Assembly (NCBI GenBank): GCA_003249035.1
Contig: QBMK01000030.1
Span: forward strand, 1 to 46,912
Length of the DNA stretch: 46,912 nt
Origin: Pseudanabaena sp.
GTDB taxonomy: Bacteria > Cyanobacteriota > Cyanobacteriia > Pseudanabaenales > Pseudanabaenaceae
Direction of reading: 5' to 3'
Shown: positions 3,030-9,025 of the stretch, in pieces
How positions within the stretch are numbered: position 1 is the stretch's first letter
Layout: each line of letters opens with the position of its first letter
Made by a program: the position numbers and the translations under genes
The notes under the pieces: generated by a model
Seen by the model: the letters and a program-made list of their open reading frames with translations, nothing else
Database searches by the model: none
Told to the model about the DNA's origin: nothing

Positions 3030-5051
3030 ATGTCGCTTTCCCGCCTATTGGTGACCGTTCTAAACCGTCTTCAGCCTTCTGCGGAGACGGTTATGCTTAT
3101 TTCTGCGATCGCGGTGGGCTTAATCAGTGGCACTGGAGTCACGCTATTTCGTAAGCTAATTTTATTTACCCAAGAATTCTATTGGCACAAACTCGCCGTA
3201 GTTCTTAGCTCCAAATGGTCTTGGGCAATCATTTTTATTCCGATGATTGGAGCGCTAGTGGTTAGCCTCCTCCGTTTCAAATTAGACCAAGCAGAAACGA
3301 ACGTTTCTAACGGTGATATGGGGCAGGCTTATTCACAGGTCCCTCTAAAAACAGTCGCAGCAGCACTTTCCCTAGGTTCAGGAGCTTCGTTGGGGCCTGA
3401 AGGACCAAGCGTTGAGTTAGGCAGTAATATTGGCTCTTTGTTGGGGCAAATGCTGCAATTTTCCAGCGAACGAATTCGGTTGCTGATTGGAGCGGGGGGA
3501 GCCGCAGGCTTAGCGGCAGGGTTTAATGCACCGATCGCTGGTGTATTTTTTGCATTAGAAGTATTGCTGCGTGATTCCTATCGCACTAATAAATCCAGCC
3601 CTAACTCAGATGTAAGTGTTGTCGTTATTGCTTCGGTCATTTCAGCGCTGGTTTCCCAGATAAGCCTCGGGGAGAGACCAGCATTTAGCTTGCCAGTCTA
3701 TGAGGTGCGCAGCTATTGGGAGTTGCCGCTATATCTCGGTTTGGGTGTGTTAGCCAGTGTCGTGGCGCTTTTGTTTACTCGCGCGATTAAGCAAGCTAAG
3801 AAGTTTTTTGCTGGAGAGTGGGCGATCGCCCCGTTTATGCGAACCCTATCTATGCCCGTAAAGCTGCTGATTGGTGGATTATGTGTTGGCATTATCTCCT
3901 TGATTTTTCCTGAAGTAATTGGGATTGGATATGAAACGGTGGAATCAATCCTGCAAGATACCCCTTTCACAATCCCTTTGTTAATTATTTTGTTAGTGAT
4001 TAAGCTTTTACTGACGGCGATTAGTTCCGCCAGTGGCTTTGTTGGAGGGATCTTTGCACCTTCGATTTTTTTAGGAGCTGTGCTGGGTAGTGTATATGGA
4101 CAAGCGATCGCTTATTTTTTGCCCGCCTCGATCCCGATCGCTGCTTCTCCTGCCTATGCTCTTGTCGGAATGGCAGCAGTTTTGGCAGGCACAGTTCGGG
4201 CACCCCTAACATCGGTGTTGCTATTGTTTGAGATGACCCGTGACTACCGCATCGTATTACCATTGATGGCAGCCGTTGGTCTCTGTGCATGGGTATTAGA
4301 CCAAATTGATAGATCAAAATCCTCAGATCGGATGATTATGCAATGGTCTGGGTTTCCCGCAGATCTAGAAGTCCTTGAAAAAATCAAGATCGCCGAAGTC
4401 ATGACTCTTAATCCAGCCTCAGTCAAATATTCGATGCCATTACTTCAAGCTGCACAGTTTATTACCAGTGGCTATCATCATAGTGCGCTTGTGTTTGATG
4501 ATATTAACCACTTGCAAGGTATTCTCACTACCCAAGATATTAAGCGAATTCTCTCTGCACCTGCTGGCGATCACCCTCTAGAGGAATTGACTGTTCAAAA
4601 TATTTGTACCAGTGAGGTGCTTTGTACATTTGCCGATGAATCCCTTGCTGAAGCTCTAAAACGCATGGCAACTAGAGACTTAAGACAAATGCCCGTGGTT
4701 GATCGTCACCAGCCCAAGCGTGTAATTGGGATGGTAGATCGACTAGCAATTACAACAGCTTATAATACAGCACTAACAAAACGAGCGATTGCTGCTAGAA
4801 TTACAGCGACTAAATCGACTGTACCTATTGCAAATAATGCTTATACGCCTATAACTACTATTGGTAGTAATGGTTCTAATAACATTTCTAGCAATAGTGC
4901 GAATGATAAGAGCAACAATAAAGACAATAATTTAAAAGATAATAATTTAAGTAATTTAAATAATTCTCTAATTAACGCTGTAGATAGTACTTTAACCAAT
5001 AACTTAAACAGAGAGTCAGATATTCAAAGTTCTGAGGCGATTTCCTCTTAA
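3030..5051 (+). CDS. CLC chloride channel/transporter with CBS pair
   Basis: 673 residues. A CLC membrane core spans about residues 1-430 and contains GSGASLGPEGPSVELG, with the gating glutamate of the G-x-E-G-P motif, and GGIFAPSIFLGA. A pair of CBS domains follows at about 450-585 (first segment IAEVMTLNPASVKYS), then an unusual Asn/Ser-rich, low-complexity tail of about 75 residues. The family moves chloride across membranes as channels or H+/Cl- exchangers, and CBS pairs often bind adenine nucleotides. At the position of the proton-carrying glutamate E203 of E. coli ClC-ec1 this protein has valine (FALEVLL), as vertebrate channels do, so the transport mode is uncertain. It lies 98 bp after the RNB gene, with a hairpin between. 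Confidence 0.9.
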   Translation: MSLSRLLVTVLNRLQPSAETVMLISAIAVGLISGTGVTLFRKLILFTQEFYWHKLAVVLSSKWSWAIIFIPMIGALVVSLLRFKLDQAETNVSNGDMGQAYSQVPLKTVAAALSLGSGASLGPEGPSVELGSNIGSLLGQMLQFSSERIRLLIGAGGAAGLAAGFNAPIAGVFFALEVLLRDSYRTNKSSPNSDVSVVVIASVISALVSQISLGERPAFSLPVYEVRSYWELPLYLGLGVLASVVALLFTRAIKQAKKFFAGEWAIAPFMRTLSMPVKLLIGGLCVGIISLIFPEVIGIGYETVESILQDTPFTIPLLIILLVIKLLLTAISSASGFVGGIFAPSIFLGAVLGSVYGQAIAYFLPASIPIAASPAYALVGMAAVLAGTVRAPLTSVLLLFEMTRDYRIVLPLMAAVGLCAWVLDQIDRSKSSDRMIMQWSGFPADLEVLEKIKIAEVMTLNPASVKYSMPLLQAAQFITSGYHHSALVFDDINHLQGILTTQDIKRILSAPAGDHPLEELTVQNICTSEVLCTFADESLAEALKRMATRDLRQMPVVDRHQPKRVIGMVDRLAITTAYNTALTKRAIAARITATKSTVPIANNAYTPITTIGSNGSNNISSNSANDKSNNKDNNLKDNNLSNLNNSLINAVDSTLTNNLNRESDIQSSEAISS

Positions 5052-5107
5052 AATTTATGCGGAGATTGTCTTAAATATCTAGTCAATTAGCCCAAATTAA
5101 GGATGTC

Positions 5108-5695
5108 ATGGATAGCGAAGAAATACTAATTGAATTTGTGGGAAATGGCGATCGCGCTAATGGTGATTCGATTAAATCGATCAGCACCACTAAAATTAAA
5201 GACAGCATTCAGAGACTTGCTAGTTTAGTTCAGCAGCTCGCTATGGACAATGCACCAAGTCAGGCTAATGGGTTGACTCTTGACGAGGTCGAAATTTCGA
5301 TTAAGCTCACAGATGCAGGTGAAGCAATCTTATTAGGCGACGGACAAAGACATGGGGCTATGACTTTGCGGTTTCGTCGCCCCAGTCAGATGGCGATCTC
5401 TAATGATGAGACACATACTCAACCACAGCCTCTTACATCTAGCACAGGAGTTGACTATACCAAGTTAAGAGATTTGCTTTCCAGTGGTAGATGGCAAGAA
5501 GCAAATCAGGAAACATGGAATGTAATGTGTCAGGCAGCGCATAAAAATATTGGTTCGGTGTTGACAGCCGATGAGATTAAACAAATTGCCTGTGATGACT
5601 TGCAAATCATTGATAACCTTTGGAGGCAACATAGCAATGGTCGCTATGGATTCAGTGCTCAAAACCAGATCTATATGTCATCAATTTTAGGATAA
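5108..5695 (+). CDS. Protein ending in the N-terminal half of a GUN4 domain
   Basis: 195 residues. Residues about 5-95 resemble the trypsin-co-occurring domain 1 (Trypco1) type: an opening beta strand, a helix, then EVEISIKLTDAGEAIL; this match is tentative. From about residue 115 the protein follows GUN4 closely: DYTKLRDLLSSGRWQEA, then DDLQIIDNLWRQHSNGRYGF and SAQNQIYMSSILG, where it stops. GUN4 binds porphyrins and activates magnesium chelatase in chlorophyll synthesis; many cyanobacterial proteins carry the domain as a sensor. The domain normally continues with a VGW...GHLP half, which is absent here. That half is found at the end of the next gene. Truncated by split rather than by sequencing edge. 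Confidence 0.85.
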   Translation: MDSEEILIEFVGNGDRANGDSIKSISTTKIKDSIQRLASLVQQLAMDNAPSQANGLTLDEVEISIKLTDAGEAILLGDGQRHGAMTLRFRRPSQMAISNDETHTQPQPLTSSTGVDYTKLRDLLSSGRWQEANQETWNVMCQAAHKNIGSVLTADEIKQIACDDLQIIDNLWRQHSNGRYGFSAQNQIYMSSILG

Positions 5696-5804
5696 ATATT
5701 TTTAGGTCGAAAAATGAAGCTCATTTCGATCTCCTATACAGTTAGAAATCTCATTTAGCAGTTTTACAATCAACTCTCAAGGTAAATCATTAGGGGTTAA
5801 TGTC

Positions 5805-6944
5805 ATGGATCAGGAAAAGCAGAAACAGATTACAGGCTATTTTATTGAGGAAGCAAAGGAACATCTTCAGACAATTGAGTCAGGGCTCCTCAATTTAGAA
5901 TCACTGATGGGTAGCTCTGAAGCCGTAAATGAGATATTCCGAGCTGCTCACTCAATTAAGGGCGGAGCAGCAATGTTGGGGTTTAGCAGCATTCAACATG
6001 TTGCCCATAACTTTGAAGACTATTTCAAAGTTATGCGTGAAAACACTAATTTCCAAATCGATCAGGATTTACAGACTCTTTTTTTACAGGCTTTTGACAA
6101 GTTACAAGAGCTTGTCGAGCATCTGCAAAGTCCTTATGGTCTGACCAAAGATGCTGTTGATAACGTTATGGCTGGTTCCGATCAAATCTTTGCGAAGCTC
6201 AAAAATCATCTTCAAAATTTAATCTCTGGAAAGGCAACCCAAGGCAATGCCATAGAGGCAGAGTCTAAGATTGATACAAGAGGTATGTTGTTAGCATTTC
6301 AGTCAGAAGTTCCGCTCAAGTTGCGAAATATGCTGGAGTTATTTAAGCAGCCTGATAGTCCTCGTAGTCGTCAAAACCTAGCAGCAATTTGTTTGCAATT
6401 GCAGCAAATAGGCGATCGCTTTGATCTAGCACCTTGGAGAGCATTGATGGAATCTGTCAGCGCTGCGACATCAAATCCTAACAATCAATTTCGCACCCTC
6501 GCACCAATTCTGATTAAGGAAATCAAACAATCTCAGGAGCAAGTTTTAGCGCAAAAAGCTCATCAAATTAAAGCCTCACCACAGTTGTTGCAATTAATCT
6601 CCGCTAGTTTAACAACAGGTTTAGACTTCACAGAGCCGCTTAAAGCACCTAAAATTGCCTCTGAGAATACTTCAGCTGATGAAGTGAGTAAGATATTTGG
6701 GGCAGTGATCGAAGAAGATAAGGCAATGAAAGGTTGGCAAACTTTTAGCGATCAGGTTGGCTGGAGACGCAATGGAGCTTGGATTGGATCTAATACCGCC
6801 ACTCCTAACACTCCGCCTGATGGGCATTTCCCAACACCACTTTGGTTGGCAAGCTGGCATCAGCCCAAGGATACTAAAGCCAAAGAGTTTCAGGCTCAGT
6901 ATGCGACTCTTTTAGCGAAGATTGCTAGCTGTAATATTAACTAA
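5805..6944 (+). CDS. Hpt phosphotransfer protein fused to C-terminal half of GUN4
   Basis: 379 residues. Residues 1-120 form a histidine phosphotransfer domain of the CheA/PilL type with the phospho-accepting H49 (AAHSIKGGAAMLGF). Residues about 145-280 are a helical region that resembles the rest of stand-alone cyanobacterial Hpt proteins. From about residue 297 the sequence becomes GUN4-like: WQTFSDQVGWRRNGAWIG, then PPDGHFPTPLWLASW. This matches the part of GUN4 that follows the point where the upstream gene stops. The two genes are 109 bp apart on the same strand and probably co-transcribed. Inference: an Hpt gene was inserted into a GUN4 gene, or the locus was rearranged, and the two products may pair to rebuild the GUN4 fold. 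Confidence 0.85.
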   Translation: MDQEKQKQITGYFIEEAKEHLQTIESGLLNLESLMGSSEAVNEIFRAAHSIKGGAAMLGFSSIQHVAHNFEDYFKVMRENTNFQIDQDLQTLFLQAFDKLQELVEHLQSPYGLTKDAVDNVMAGSDQIFAKLKNHLQNLISGKATQGNAIEAESKIDTRGMLLAFQSEVPLKLRNMLELFKQPDSPRSRQNLAAICLQLQQIGDRFDLAPWRALMESVSAATSNPNNQFRTLAPILIKEIKQSQEQVLAQKAHQIKASPQLLQLISASLTTGLDFTEPLKAPKIASENTSADEVSKIFGAVIEEDKAMKGWQTFSDQVGWRRNGAWIGSNTATPNTPPDGHFPTPLWLASWHQPKDTKAKEFQAQYATLLAKIASCNIN

Positions 6945-6953
6945 TTATCTTGT

Positions 6954-6986
6954 GAAAATGTGCGGCGCAGGTTGCCGCACATTTTC
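6954..6986. terminator. Hairpin downstream of Hpt-GUN4C gene
   Basis: A perfect 13-bp stem (6954-6966 with 6974-6986) has a GC-rich apex and a 7-nt loop. The outer ends are GAAAA and TTTTC. It starts 9 bp after the stop codon and probably ends the GUN4-N/Hpt transcript. Confidence 0.65.
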
Positions 6987-7051
6987 GTTGGGGTCTAGTT
7001 CTTAGATCTAATTTTAGGATTTTGTCATTTACTCCAGAGAGGTTTTATTAA

Positions 7052-9025
7052 GTGAGGAGTTTTTTTGCCGCAATTTTGGCAATTAGTGCCACTACATCTG
7101 TGTTGCCTGCGAACGCGAATTCGAGTAGTAATTCCATATCTAGTCAAATCGCAAAAAGCTCTATATCTGCTGACAAGATCCAGATCTCTGGCTCTAATCA
7201 ATTTGCACAGCGTTCTCTTAATCTTGCTAAACAGATTCCCGCAAATGCGATCGGCTTAGCGATGGTCGATGTCGATTTACGATCATGGCAGTTGTTTGGA
7301 TCGTCGCAAGCAACAGATCCAATTTCGGCGATTGCTAAATTCTTGATGTTTTTGGATCAATCTCCCACAATTTCAATTGTTAAGGATATTCAACCTTGGC
7401 TTGGTAAAGAAGTAGCGATCGCTTTTTTGGGTAGTACCGATGACAAATTTGAGCTATCTTTTGTAGCTTTATCGACCGTCGCAGATGGGCAGAAATTCGA
7501 TCTTTTTCTGAATAAGTTAAAAAGTCTTGATTTACCAAAACCCACAGAAACTCTATATCAAAATGTCAAAATCTTAGAATGGAAATTAGAAGAAGAAAGC
7601 GGTGGTGACGAGAAACCAGTAATCTCGCAGAAATTGAAATCACGCAATTCATTGAAGTCTTTGCTTCAGCTTAAACAAGACAGCGATCAAAATGATATTG
7701 CCCACGAAAAAAATGGTTTTGAAGCAGAAGATGAGCCAATTGAACCTAGCCTTCCTGACTTTGGTATCAAGCGATTTGCGATCGCTAAGTTGCCAAGTGG
7801 GATTGCTATAATTGCCACCGATCGCCAAGCTATCCAGAAGTTGATTGAGATATCTGCTGAGATCCCTACGCAAAAGTTGCCATCTTTGGCTGATAATCCT
7901 CTTTTTTTGAGATCGCTAAATAATCCTCTATGGAATCGCTCAGTACTAGCAGGTTATGGAGATTTTAAAGCGCTAGGTAAGATTTTTGAGCCTTTAGCAG
8001 CGGATTTACCTGATACTTCGGAAATTCCAGGGTTTAGCCGTAAAGAATATCTTGAAAGCATAAAATATACATTGGATCAATACAGTAGTGTTGATCTGTT
8101 TACATGGATAACGCCCACAGGTATTCGCAGTCAGAGTAGTAGTTATTTCTCGGAAGTGCGACTGCCCATTCCCAAAGATAATGAAACTCGCGATCGCTTG
8201 TTGTCATATTTGCCTGCAAATGTTTATGGAGCAATTACTAGTCGCAATCTCAATCGTCAATGGCAATGGTTTGTTGAGGAATCAAAACAGCAATCTACAT
8301 ACAAGATTTTTACCGAAGGCGTGCGAATGCTCTCTTCTTTGGTTATTGGTTCTGGATTTGATCTCGACATTGAGAAAGATATCATCTCTTGGATCGATGG
8401 AGAATATGCGGTTGTGGTATTCCCTAGCGATCGCTCACCTTTTCAAGAGATTGGCGTTGATCTGACCATAGGAGCGTTAATCCGTACATCGAAACCTGAT
8501 GTAGCTAATGCAACTCTTGCCAAATTAACTCAACAACTCTCCAAATTAGGTGGGGATTTCATCCAAGTCAAAAAGCGCCAAATTGGAACTACTATCCTTA
8601 CTAGTTTTGAGTTTCCAGATGAGCAAATACGTGGTAAAACACAGAGTATTTTTGCTTATGGTTGGCGCGATCGCCAAACTTTAATACTGACATTGGGAGC
8701 GAATACAGCATCAGCTTTTATCCCGATTCCCAAACCTGCTCTCGCTGAATCAGAGATGTTTCGCGATGCAATCGCGGATATGCCACAACCAAACTTTGGC
8801 TATTTTTTCCTCAATGCTCATGCGATCGCCAAACAAGTGGCTAAGTTCTATTTATTTTTCTCAGAGAGCTCTACTTCTCCTGATGAGCAGAAACAAGCAA
8901 AACCAGAAGTAGAAGTGCCTGAACTACTCCAAAAGGCAATTGATAGACTCGGTGGTTTAGTTTTTGTTTATTCTGAAACTAGCGATCGCTTCCAATCTGA
9001 TTTTTTCCTTGAGGTAAAACCTTAG
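7052..9025 (+). CDS. DUF3352 exported protein
   Basis: 657 residues, from a GTG start preceded by AGAGAGG about 10 bp upstream. The N-terminus (RSFFAAILAISATTSVLPANA) looks like a Sec signal peptide with an AxA cleavage site. The body resembles the cyanobacterial DUF3352 family, whose members are periplasmic or membrane-associated and of unknown function. Recognisable parts are the AIGLAMVDVDLRSWQLF-type opening, repeated IPANAIG/LPANVYGAI strands and a C-terminal YSETSDRFQSDFFLEV. No catalytic motif is seen. It stands alone between the Hpt-GUN4C gene and rdgB, with a hairpin on each side. Confidence 0.8.
   Translation: MRSFFAAILAISATTSVLPANANSSSNSISSQIAKSSISADKIQISGSNQFAQRSLNLAKQIPANAIGLAMVDVDLRSWQLFGSSQATDPISAIAKFLMFLDQSPTISIVKDIQPWLGKEVAIAFLGSTDDKFELSFVALSTVADGQKFDLFLNKLKSLDLPKPTETLYQNVKILEWKLEEESGGDEKPVISQKLKSRNSLKSLLQLKQDSDQNDIAHEKNGFEAEDEPIEPSLPDFGIKRFAIAKLPSGIAIIATDRQAIQKLIEISAEIPTQKLPSLADNPLFLRSLNNPLWNRSVLAGYGDFKALGKIFEPLAADLPDTSEIPGFSRKEYLESIKYTLDQYSSVDLFTWITPTGIRSQSSSYFSEVRLPIPKDNETRDRLLSYLPANVYGAITSRNLNRQWQWFVEESKQQSTYKIFTEGVRMLSSLVIGSGFDLDIEKDIISWIDGEYAVVVFPSDRSPFQEIGVDLTIGALIRTSKPDVANATLAKLTQQLSKLGGDFIQVKKRQIGTTILTSFEFPDEQIRGKTQSIFAYGWRDRQTLILTLGANTASAFIPIPKPALAESEMFRDAIADMPQPNFGYFFLNAHAIAKQVAKFYLFFSESSTSPDEQKQAKPEVEVPELLQKAIDRLGGLVFVYSETSDRFQSDFFLEVKP

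Follow-up and report, generated by a model that had tools for sequence, protein, structure and literature searches.

A GUN4 domain split between two adjacent genes of Pseudanabaenaceae, one of which encodes a CheA-type Hpt protein

Two adjacent genes of Pseudanabaena sp. (assembly GCA_003249035.1, genome size 4.55 Mb) together encode one GUN4 domain, with the N-terminal half at the end of the upstream gene A and the C-terminal half at the end of the downstream gene B. Both are located on the 46,912-nucleotide contig QBMK01000030.1 (C23), the whole of which is referred to as the window. The split is conserved in all Pseudanabaenaceae genomes searched, the halves are encoded as two chains, and both are under purifying selection. 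It is considered likely that A and B represent a co-inherited and probably co-transcribed pair, in which an old split GUN4 domain docks A onto a phosphotransfer protein. GUN4 (Gun4; PF05419) is known as a cofactor of Mg-chelatase, and canonical GUN4 binds porphyrins and bilins; binding of ChlH and stimulation of Mg-chelatase characterize the bilin-binding orthologs.

Gene A (positions 5108..5695, plus strand; defined by open reading frame and Pfam analysis) encodes 195 amino acids. As proposed in a preliminary description of this DNA, it ends in the N-terminal half of GUN4: region 5438..5680 on the plus strand covers profile positions 2-84 of 141 of PF05419 (E 1.9e-24), all 35 A proteins of the family analyzed match likewise, and the stop codon directly follows GFSAQNQIYMSSILG. 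Moreover, the profile of A aligned with residues 92-175 of the Thermosynechococcus elongatus (T. elongatus) Gun4 structure 1z3x at E 6e-15. Pfam analysis additionally revealed a Pepco domain (PF24393; residues 20-91, 5165..5380, plus strand; E 1.8e-8), which was missing from the preliminary description and was matched at E<=1 in 33/35 A proteins. No kinase domain was detected in A by Pfam. A defence role, indicated by the PADLOC model PD-T4-6 (E 6.4e-29), was rejected because the match is confined to the GUN4 half of A (model positions 295-385 of 450 only, corresponding to A residues 101-191) and no kinase is present. Since PD-T4-6 matches A via the GUN4 half alone, this model may also flag other GUN4 proteins as defence kinases.

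An intergenic gap of 109 bases (5696..5804, plus strand) separates A from B. Ahead of the start codon (ATG) of B, it contains AGGGG (5792-5796), which resembles a Shine-Dalgarno sequence; of the 22 named loci of the family, 15 show this motif no more than 20 bases upstream of B. No terminator-like site was found within 4950-7100, and a promoter scan returned five sites vs 4.4 in shuffled sequences. Upstream of A, an RNase-like gene (our own label) and a ClC-like gene (assigned by NCBIfam) are kept in 21/22 named family loci, while the remaining one, L102, shows the RNase match only. In the window, the ClC-type chloride channel gene occupies 3030-5051 and has an Asn/Ser-rich tail. Among the four neighbouring genes examined, none was a chemotaxis gene. 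NCBIfam provided no name for A or B, and B matched CheA models only in their initial part, with scores far under the cut-off.

Gene B (5805..6944, plus strand; open reading frame, Pfam and class search) encodes 379 amino acids, and the reading frames of both genes proved intact, as had been described. It was correctly recognized as an Hpt protein with H49: the Hpt domain spans residues 11-105 (5835..6119, plus strand; E 3.3e-17), and the presumed phospho-acceptor His49 (5949-5951) is invariant in 35 aligned rows. This histidine and the four-helix P1 fold of the predicted structure identify the domain as the CheA type (P1), with CheA P1 1i5n as structural match (Z 16.4, 2.3 A). A second four-helix, Hpt-like bundle follows at residues of about 153-251 (6261..6557, plus strand). 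It matched the YojN Hpt 1sr2 at Z 10.0 and 3.1 A over 89 aligned residues, a score that bundles can reach by arrangement alone, and showed dN/dS values of 0.07-0.16 in the three comparisons where these were computable. CheA dimerisation, ATPase and CheW domains did not appear among the Pfam matches for B of the window or among the families listed for the 35 B proteins.

The C-terminal GUN4 half was assigned to 6723..6941 (plus strand), comprising profile positions 85-124 (6723-6836) and a C-terminal helix extending to 6941, on the basis of a weak DNA-level match, family-level profiles and a fold model. The proposal that the second gene ends in this half was thus supported at the level of the family, but not by Pfam for the window's own B, for which hmmscan reported no GUN4 row at E<=10 and the DNA-level profile search reached only 13.1 bits (E 0.25; positions 85-124). 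A Pfam scan of the 35 aligned B proteins returned GUN4 at E<=1 for 34 of them (best 6e-7); only the window's protein, in which GUN4 is too diverged for recognition by Pfam, gave no such match. In other genera, the C-terminus of B reads near the GUN4 consensus. A profile of B C-termini from 14/35 loci aligned with residues 180-216 of 1z3x (E 0.0032), the same profile found Synechocystis Gun4 only at E 0.33, amid chance hits, and the full B profile was weaker against the Gun4 structure chain (E 0.58-1).

The strongest evidence for the C-half comes from the converse comparison. An HMM built from B C-termini alone was applied to 2151 ORFs of 59 loci that had been fetched for their likeness to the N-half, and it matched at most 35 amino acids downstream of the N-half in 55/65 GUN4 domains of these other loci, in 37 of the 55 at E<1e-5. 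Just two matches occurred elsewhere among the 2151 ORFs, one at the edge of locus L151 and one in L135, the latter immediately downstream of an ORF for an N-half, from which a single in-frame stop separates it. L135 (2350-2841) originates from an Okeania sp. MAG and contains a GUN4 domain with a single in-frame stop between its N- and C-half, near the split site; this stop could represent decay or a sequencing error. The two halves were described as complementary and in the right order, which agrees with profile positions 2-84 in A and 85-124 in B as well as with residues 92-175 and 180-216 of 1z3x. Neither A nor B contains a complete GUN4 domain; in 38/38 genomes the domain is split between the two.

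In order to evaluate the structure of the composite, one A+B pair (L088, Pseudanabaena frigida) was modelled with AlphaFold2 as a synthetic chain read through the intergenic stops, using an alignment of 39 rows, 7 of which were joined pairs. The model showed a mean pLDDT of 77 and a pTM of 0.37. With VIA-align 2, its residues 107..611 were superimposed on residues 79..233 of the 4xkc chain (Z 17.1, 2.3 A, 144 residues), and Z values of 15-17 were obtained across 1y6i, 1z3x, 4xkc, 7e2t, 4ykb and 7e2r, a set comprising GUN4 of Synechocystis, T. elongatus, Chlamydomonas and Arabidopsis. The match extends to the last residue of the model; A contributes only the model residues up to 196, so that no fewer than 54 of the aligned residues lie beyond A. 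The halves of A and B are accordingly modelled, and hence only predicted, to form a complete GUN4 core fold, in a covalently tethered single pair with an artificial linker, and this prediction could lean on remembered GUN4 folds. Blockwise pLDDT of the C-half amounted to 43-65 in the window's B alone (residues 311-379) vs 56-84 in A+B (541-610), and a GUN4 row was absent from the top 50 of the VIA-align search with B alone; this control is indicative only because its sequence and alignment differ from those of the A+B model. There is good support for the suggestion that the pieces may still join, since the halves are complementary, intact, under selection and modelled as one GUN4 fold.

A search for the same arrangement in related genomes had been suggested, and A and B were indeed neighbours in 38/38 Pseudanabaenaceae genomes searched. 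In 35/35 of the primary set (G000-G034; 26 of the genus, nine of other genera), A is followed by B on one strand with a gap of 8-201 bases. The order search covered 38 genomes of this one family from eight genera; A was found in 38/38, and the three extra genomes also possess B beside A (3/3). An assembly error at 5.7-6.7 kb is consequently rejected, as the pair is adjacent in all of these genomes. The named family loci agree on the pair in 22/22 cases, largely representing the same assemblies again, after omission of L065 and L066 as duplicates of L073 and L068 before counting. In a class search of 388 genomes, the B profile was matched to its end (366-369 of 369) in 38/38 genomes of the family; among the matches listed for the other 350 genomes, none extended past 336 and most ended before 300. 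For the latter, a match at 1e-60 was obtained in 258/350 genomes, with at most five candidates scored per genome. No Hpt-GUN4 fusion occurred among the matches listed from these 350 genomes of other families and no Pepco-GUN4 fusion among those listed from 23 other-family genomes, in which matches to A begin at residue 78 or later. Since all eight genera searched share the split, its origin most likely predates their divergence.

In 24/35 pairs, A and B occupy different reading frames, which precludes joint translation in these pairs and indicates two chains; joining by read-through or frameshifting was rejected on the same grounds. Nine in-frame pairs were translated through, of which seven contain further stops and two (L064, L068) only the stop of A itself. 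In L068 (2047-2061; genome G033), the coding part of A is followed by nothing but TAA GGG GGG GAT before the start codon ATG of B, which is in the same frame; this gene boundary is minimal and includes a G-rich, Shine-Dalgarno-like stretch. Compared with four congeners (NG86 on short segments, with saturated values excluded), dN/dS amounted to 0.04-0.10 for the N-half in four comparisons, 0.05-0.18 for the C-half and 0.07-0.84 for the linkers where computable. Both halves are under purifying selection, with dN/dS values that are low and mostly below those of the linkers; the exception is the comparison with L088, where linker 2 has the lower value (0.072, vs 0.123 for the C-half).

Regarding the origin of the split, the entry of an Hpt gene into a single GUN4 gene, as originally suggested, is plausible, but the donor was more likely a 5' fragment of a cheA-like gene. 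In a tree of the first 268 residues, the Hpt part of B falls together with N-terminal regions of long ORFs resembling CheA, which makes such a fragment likelier as donor than a free-standing Hpt gene. The B rows form one clade (support 95/96) on the side of the long-ORF N-termini, whereas the main solo-Hpt clade (11/14 solo rows, 100/99) excludes B and the other three solo rows are placed on B's side. This tree comprised 13/35 B rows and 35 rows picked by us from a search, Hik36 not being among them; its inner support is uneven, and of the long ORFs only the window genome's own was examined as a CheA. In six solo Hpt proteins inspected, the matches to B end at residue 264-295 and the C-termini differ. 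In the simplest history, which is a possible one, a 5' cheA fragment would have been inserted into one Pepco-GUN4 gene. In loci L104 (3673-5531) and L159 (3802-5306), a Pepco gene is the immediate neighbour of a gene for a caspase-GUN4 and a CHAT-GUN4 protein, respectively, and the combination of Pepco with GUN4 in A may have arisen from such neighbourhoods.

Tentatively, two different GUN4 genes may instead have met, with the C-half being lost from the upstream gene and the N-half from a gene for an Hpt-GUN4 protein. This is consistent with half-domain trees in which the N-half of A groups with kinase-linked GUN4s (100/99; bootstrap not settled, 'kinase-linked' being set by a motif) whereas the C-half does not, having no supported place (60/70). 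Furthermore, the similarities of N-half and C-half to single-chain GUN4s are anticorrelated (Spearman -0.52, 62 domains; from 65 N-half domains, three were dropped for short tails, and 11/35 split pairs were used). Against a two-gene origin, the C-half tree is short and poorly supported, with most kinase-linked C-halves on a long branch of their own, a full-length Hpt-GUN4 protein is absent among the matches listed, and interruption of one gene takes fewer steps.

Elsewhere in the genome, four other GUN4 matches exceeded the cut-off. The one at C11:37998 is a complete GUN4 (210 bits, profile 2-141, 242-aa frame) that looks like the canonical Gun4, and the remaining ones reside in frames of 511-807 aa. 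In relation to canonical GUN4, both halves of the pair are homologous and the whole core is covered by the superimposed model of the composite, but A and B are separate genes yielding separate chains, in which the halves are fused to Pepco and Hpt parts and the LxNxLR motif is absent. With kinase-, caspase- and CHAT-GUN4 proteins, A shares the grouping of its N-half (the kinase was confirmed by Pfam in the four kinase-linked proteins scanned); in those proteins, however, GUN4 is single-chain, while A and B contain neither kinase nor peptidase. Loci fetched during the analysis further included three GUN4 domains in a row within one ORF (L118, 3867-6569), two each in L160 and L132, and three GUN4 ORFs within 7 kb in L151 (Arthrospira). 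Moreover, a GUN4-like ORF of 212 codons was located on a 113.6 kb IMG/VR contig (L161, 2899-3534), the one relative obtained from the viral-contig scan.

For the Hpt part, the excerpted text of PMC7656254 describes the split CheA of Synechocystis, PilL-N/PilL-C (Hik36/Hik43), in which a CheA-type Hpt protein is likewise apart from the kinase part; there, however, the cut lies between domains and not inside a domain as in A and B. In addition, B ends in half a GUN4 and is placed outside the main solo-Hpt clade. An assignment of B as a PilL-N ortholog is disfavoured, since the tree, with its uneven support, places B with the N-terminal parts of long CheA-like ORFs. According to the same excerpt, a two-hybrid test showed interaction among Hik36, Hik43 and Rre6, an example of a kinase system that includes a separate Hpt protein (PMC7656254). 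In the N-terminus of a Tfp-class CheA (ChpA/PilL), an Hpt is reported to be followed by a further Hpt-like domain, as in B (excerpt of PMC10782961), whereas B lacks the dimerisation, ATPase and CheW parts and carries the GUN4 C-half in their place.

A mechanism can be proposed in which A would provide the first five helices and B the rest, completing one GUN4 domain and binding the two proteins to each other. The composite GUN4 would serve as a dock that holds the Pepco domain of A beside the CheA-type Hpt of B. Because B has no kinase, its His49 would most likely be phosphorylated in trans by a CheA-like kinase of the genome and then pass the phosphate to a receiver domain, and A, together with whatever the composite GUN4 pocket or Pepco senses, may set whether B is engaged. 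Partner kinase and receiver are guesses at this stage. The genome encodes three CheA-like proteins, with H-kinase_dim over the cut-off in one and below it in two; by eye, all three feature an N-terminal Hpt-like motif.

Sensing of porphyrins or bilins, as put forward initially, is not supported so far. In a reading regarded as rather unlikely, the composite would be a ligand-gated split sensor, with a tetrapyrrole bridging the half-pockets and joining A and B only in the presence of ligand. It is somewhat less likely again that a pigment precursor stitches the Pepco protein onto the phosphotransfer protein and thereby couples tetrapyrrole status to CheA-type signalling. Ligand gating would be in line with the porphyrin and bilin binding of canonical GUN4 and with the presence of both core halves in the A+B model; docking, however, may need no ligand, and the LxNxLR motif of bilin binding is missing. 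The sequence that follows GHxP in the family is mostly [A/T]-P-x-W-L, without Asn211 or Arg214 and with the second Leu alone mostly kept, as compared by eye between the family alignment, Asn211 as given in PMC10156173 and the GHLP ending at residue 208 of 1y6i. The absence of LxNxLR makes porphyrin, or none, the more likely ligand. For GUN4 paralogs, this motif is reported to be absent (excerpt of PMC10156173), and tetrapyrrole level was proposed as regulator of enzymes linked to GUN4 domains, such as kinases, caspases and the like (excerpt of PMC7159879), which also favours a ligand-gated sensor.

It is improbable that the halves no longer form one domain and that each was conserved for a new role as an independent small interaction module. 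Although the C-half is weak or unseen by Pfam in the window and the model confidence is modest, the co-occurrence and adjacency in 38/38 genomes, the complementary boundaries, the model Z of 17 and the lower confidence of the C-half without A argue for a shared domain. A broken domain is also the first look of decay, but a decaying pseudogene or an assembly artefact is ruled out for practical purposes by conservation of the pair in 38 genomes and by dN/dS values of the two halves that are far under 1.

Among the open-licence papers listed in literature searches, judged by title and abstract start, none describes a divided GUN4 domain or a protein combining Hpt with GUN4. GUN4 orthologs and paralogs were surveyed in PMC10156173, the excerpted text of which uses 'split' once, about another matter, while 'fused', 'truncated' and 'histidine' are absent from its main text.

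Genes split between domains are common. One globular domain cut inside its fold, with its halves on different signalling parts and kept family-wide, is unusual, and Pseudanabaenaceae represent a deep-branching cyanobacterial family that keeps such a split GUN4. The A-B pair is a natural counterpart of engineered split-protein sensors, and it offers a concrete interaction to test. For the family, it suggests that GUN4-type domains may be connected with two-component phosphotransfer.
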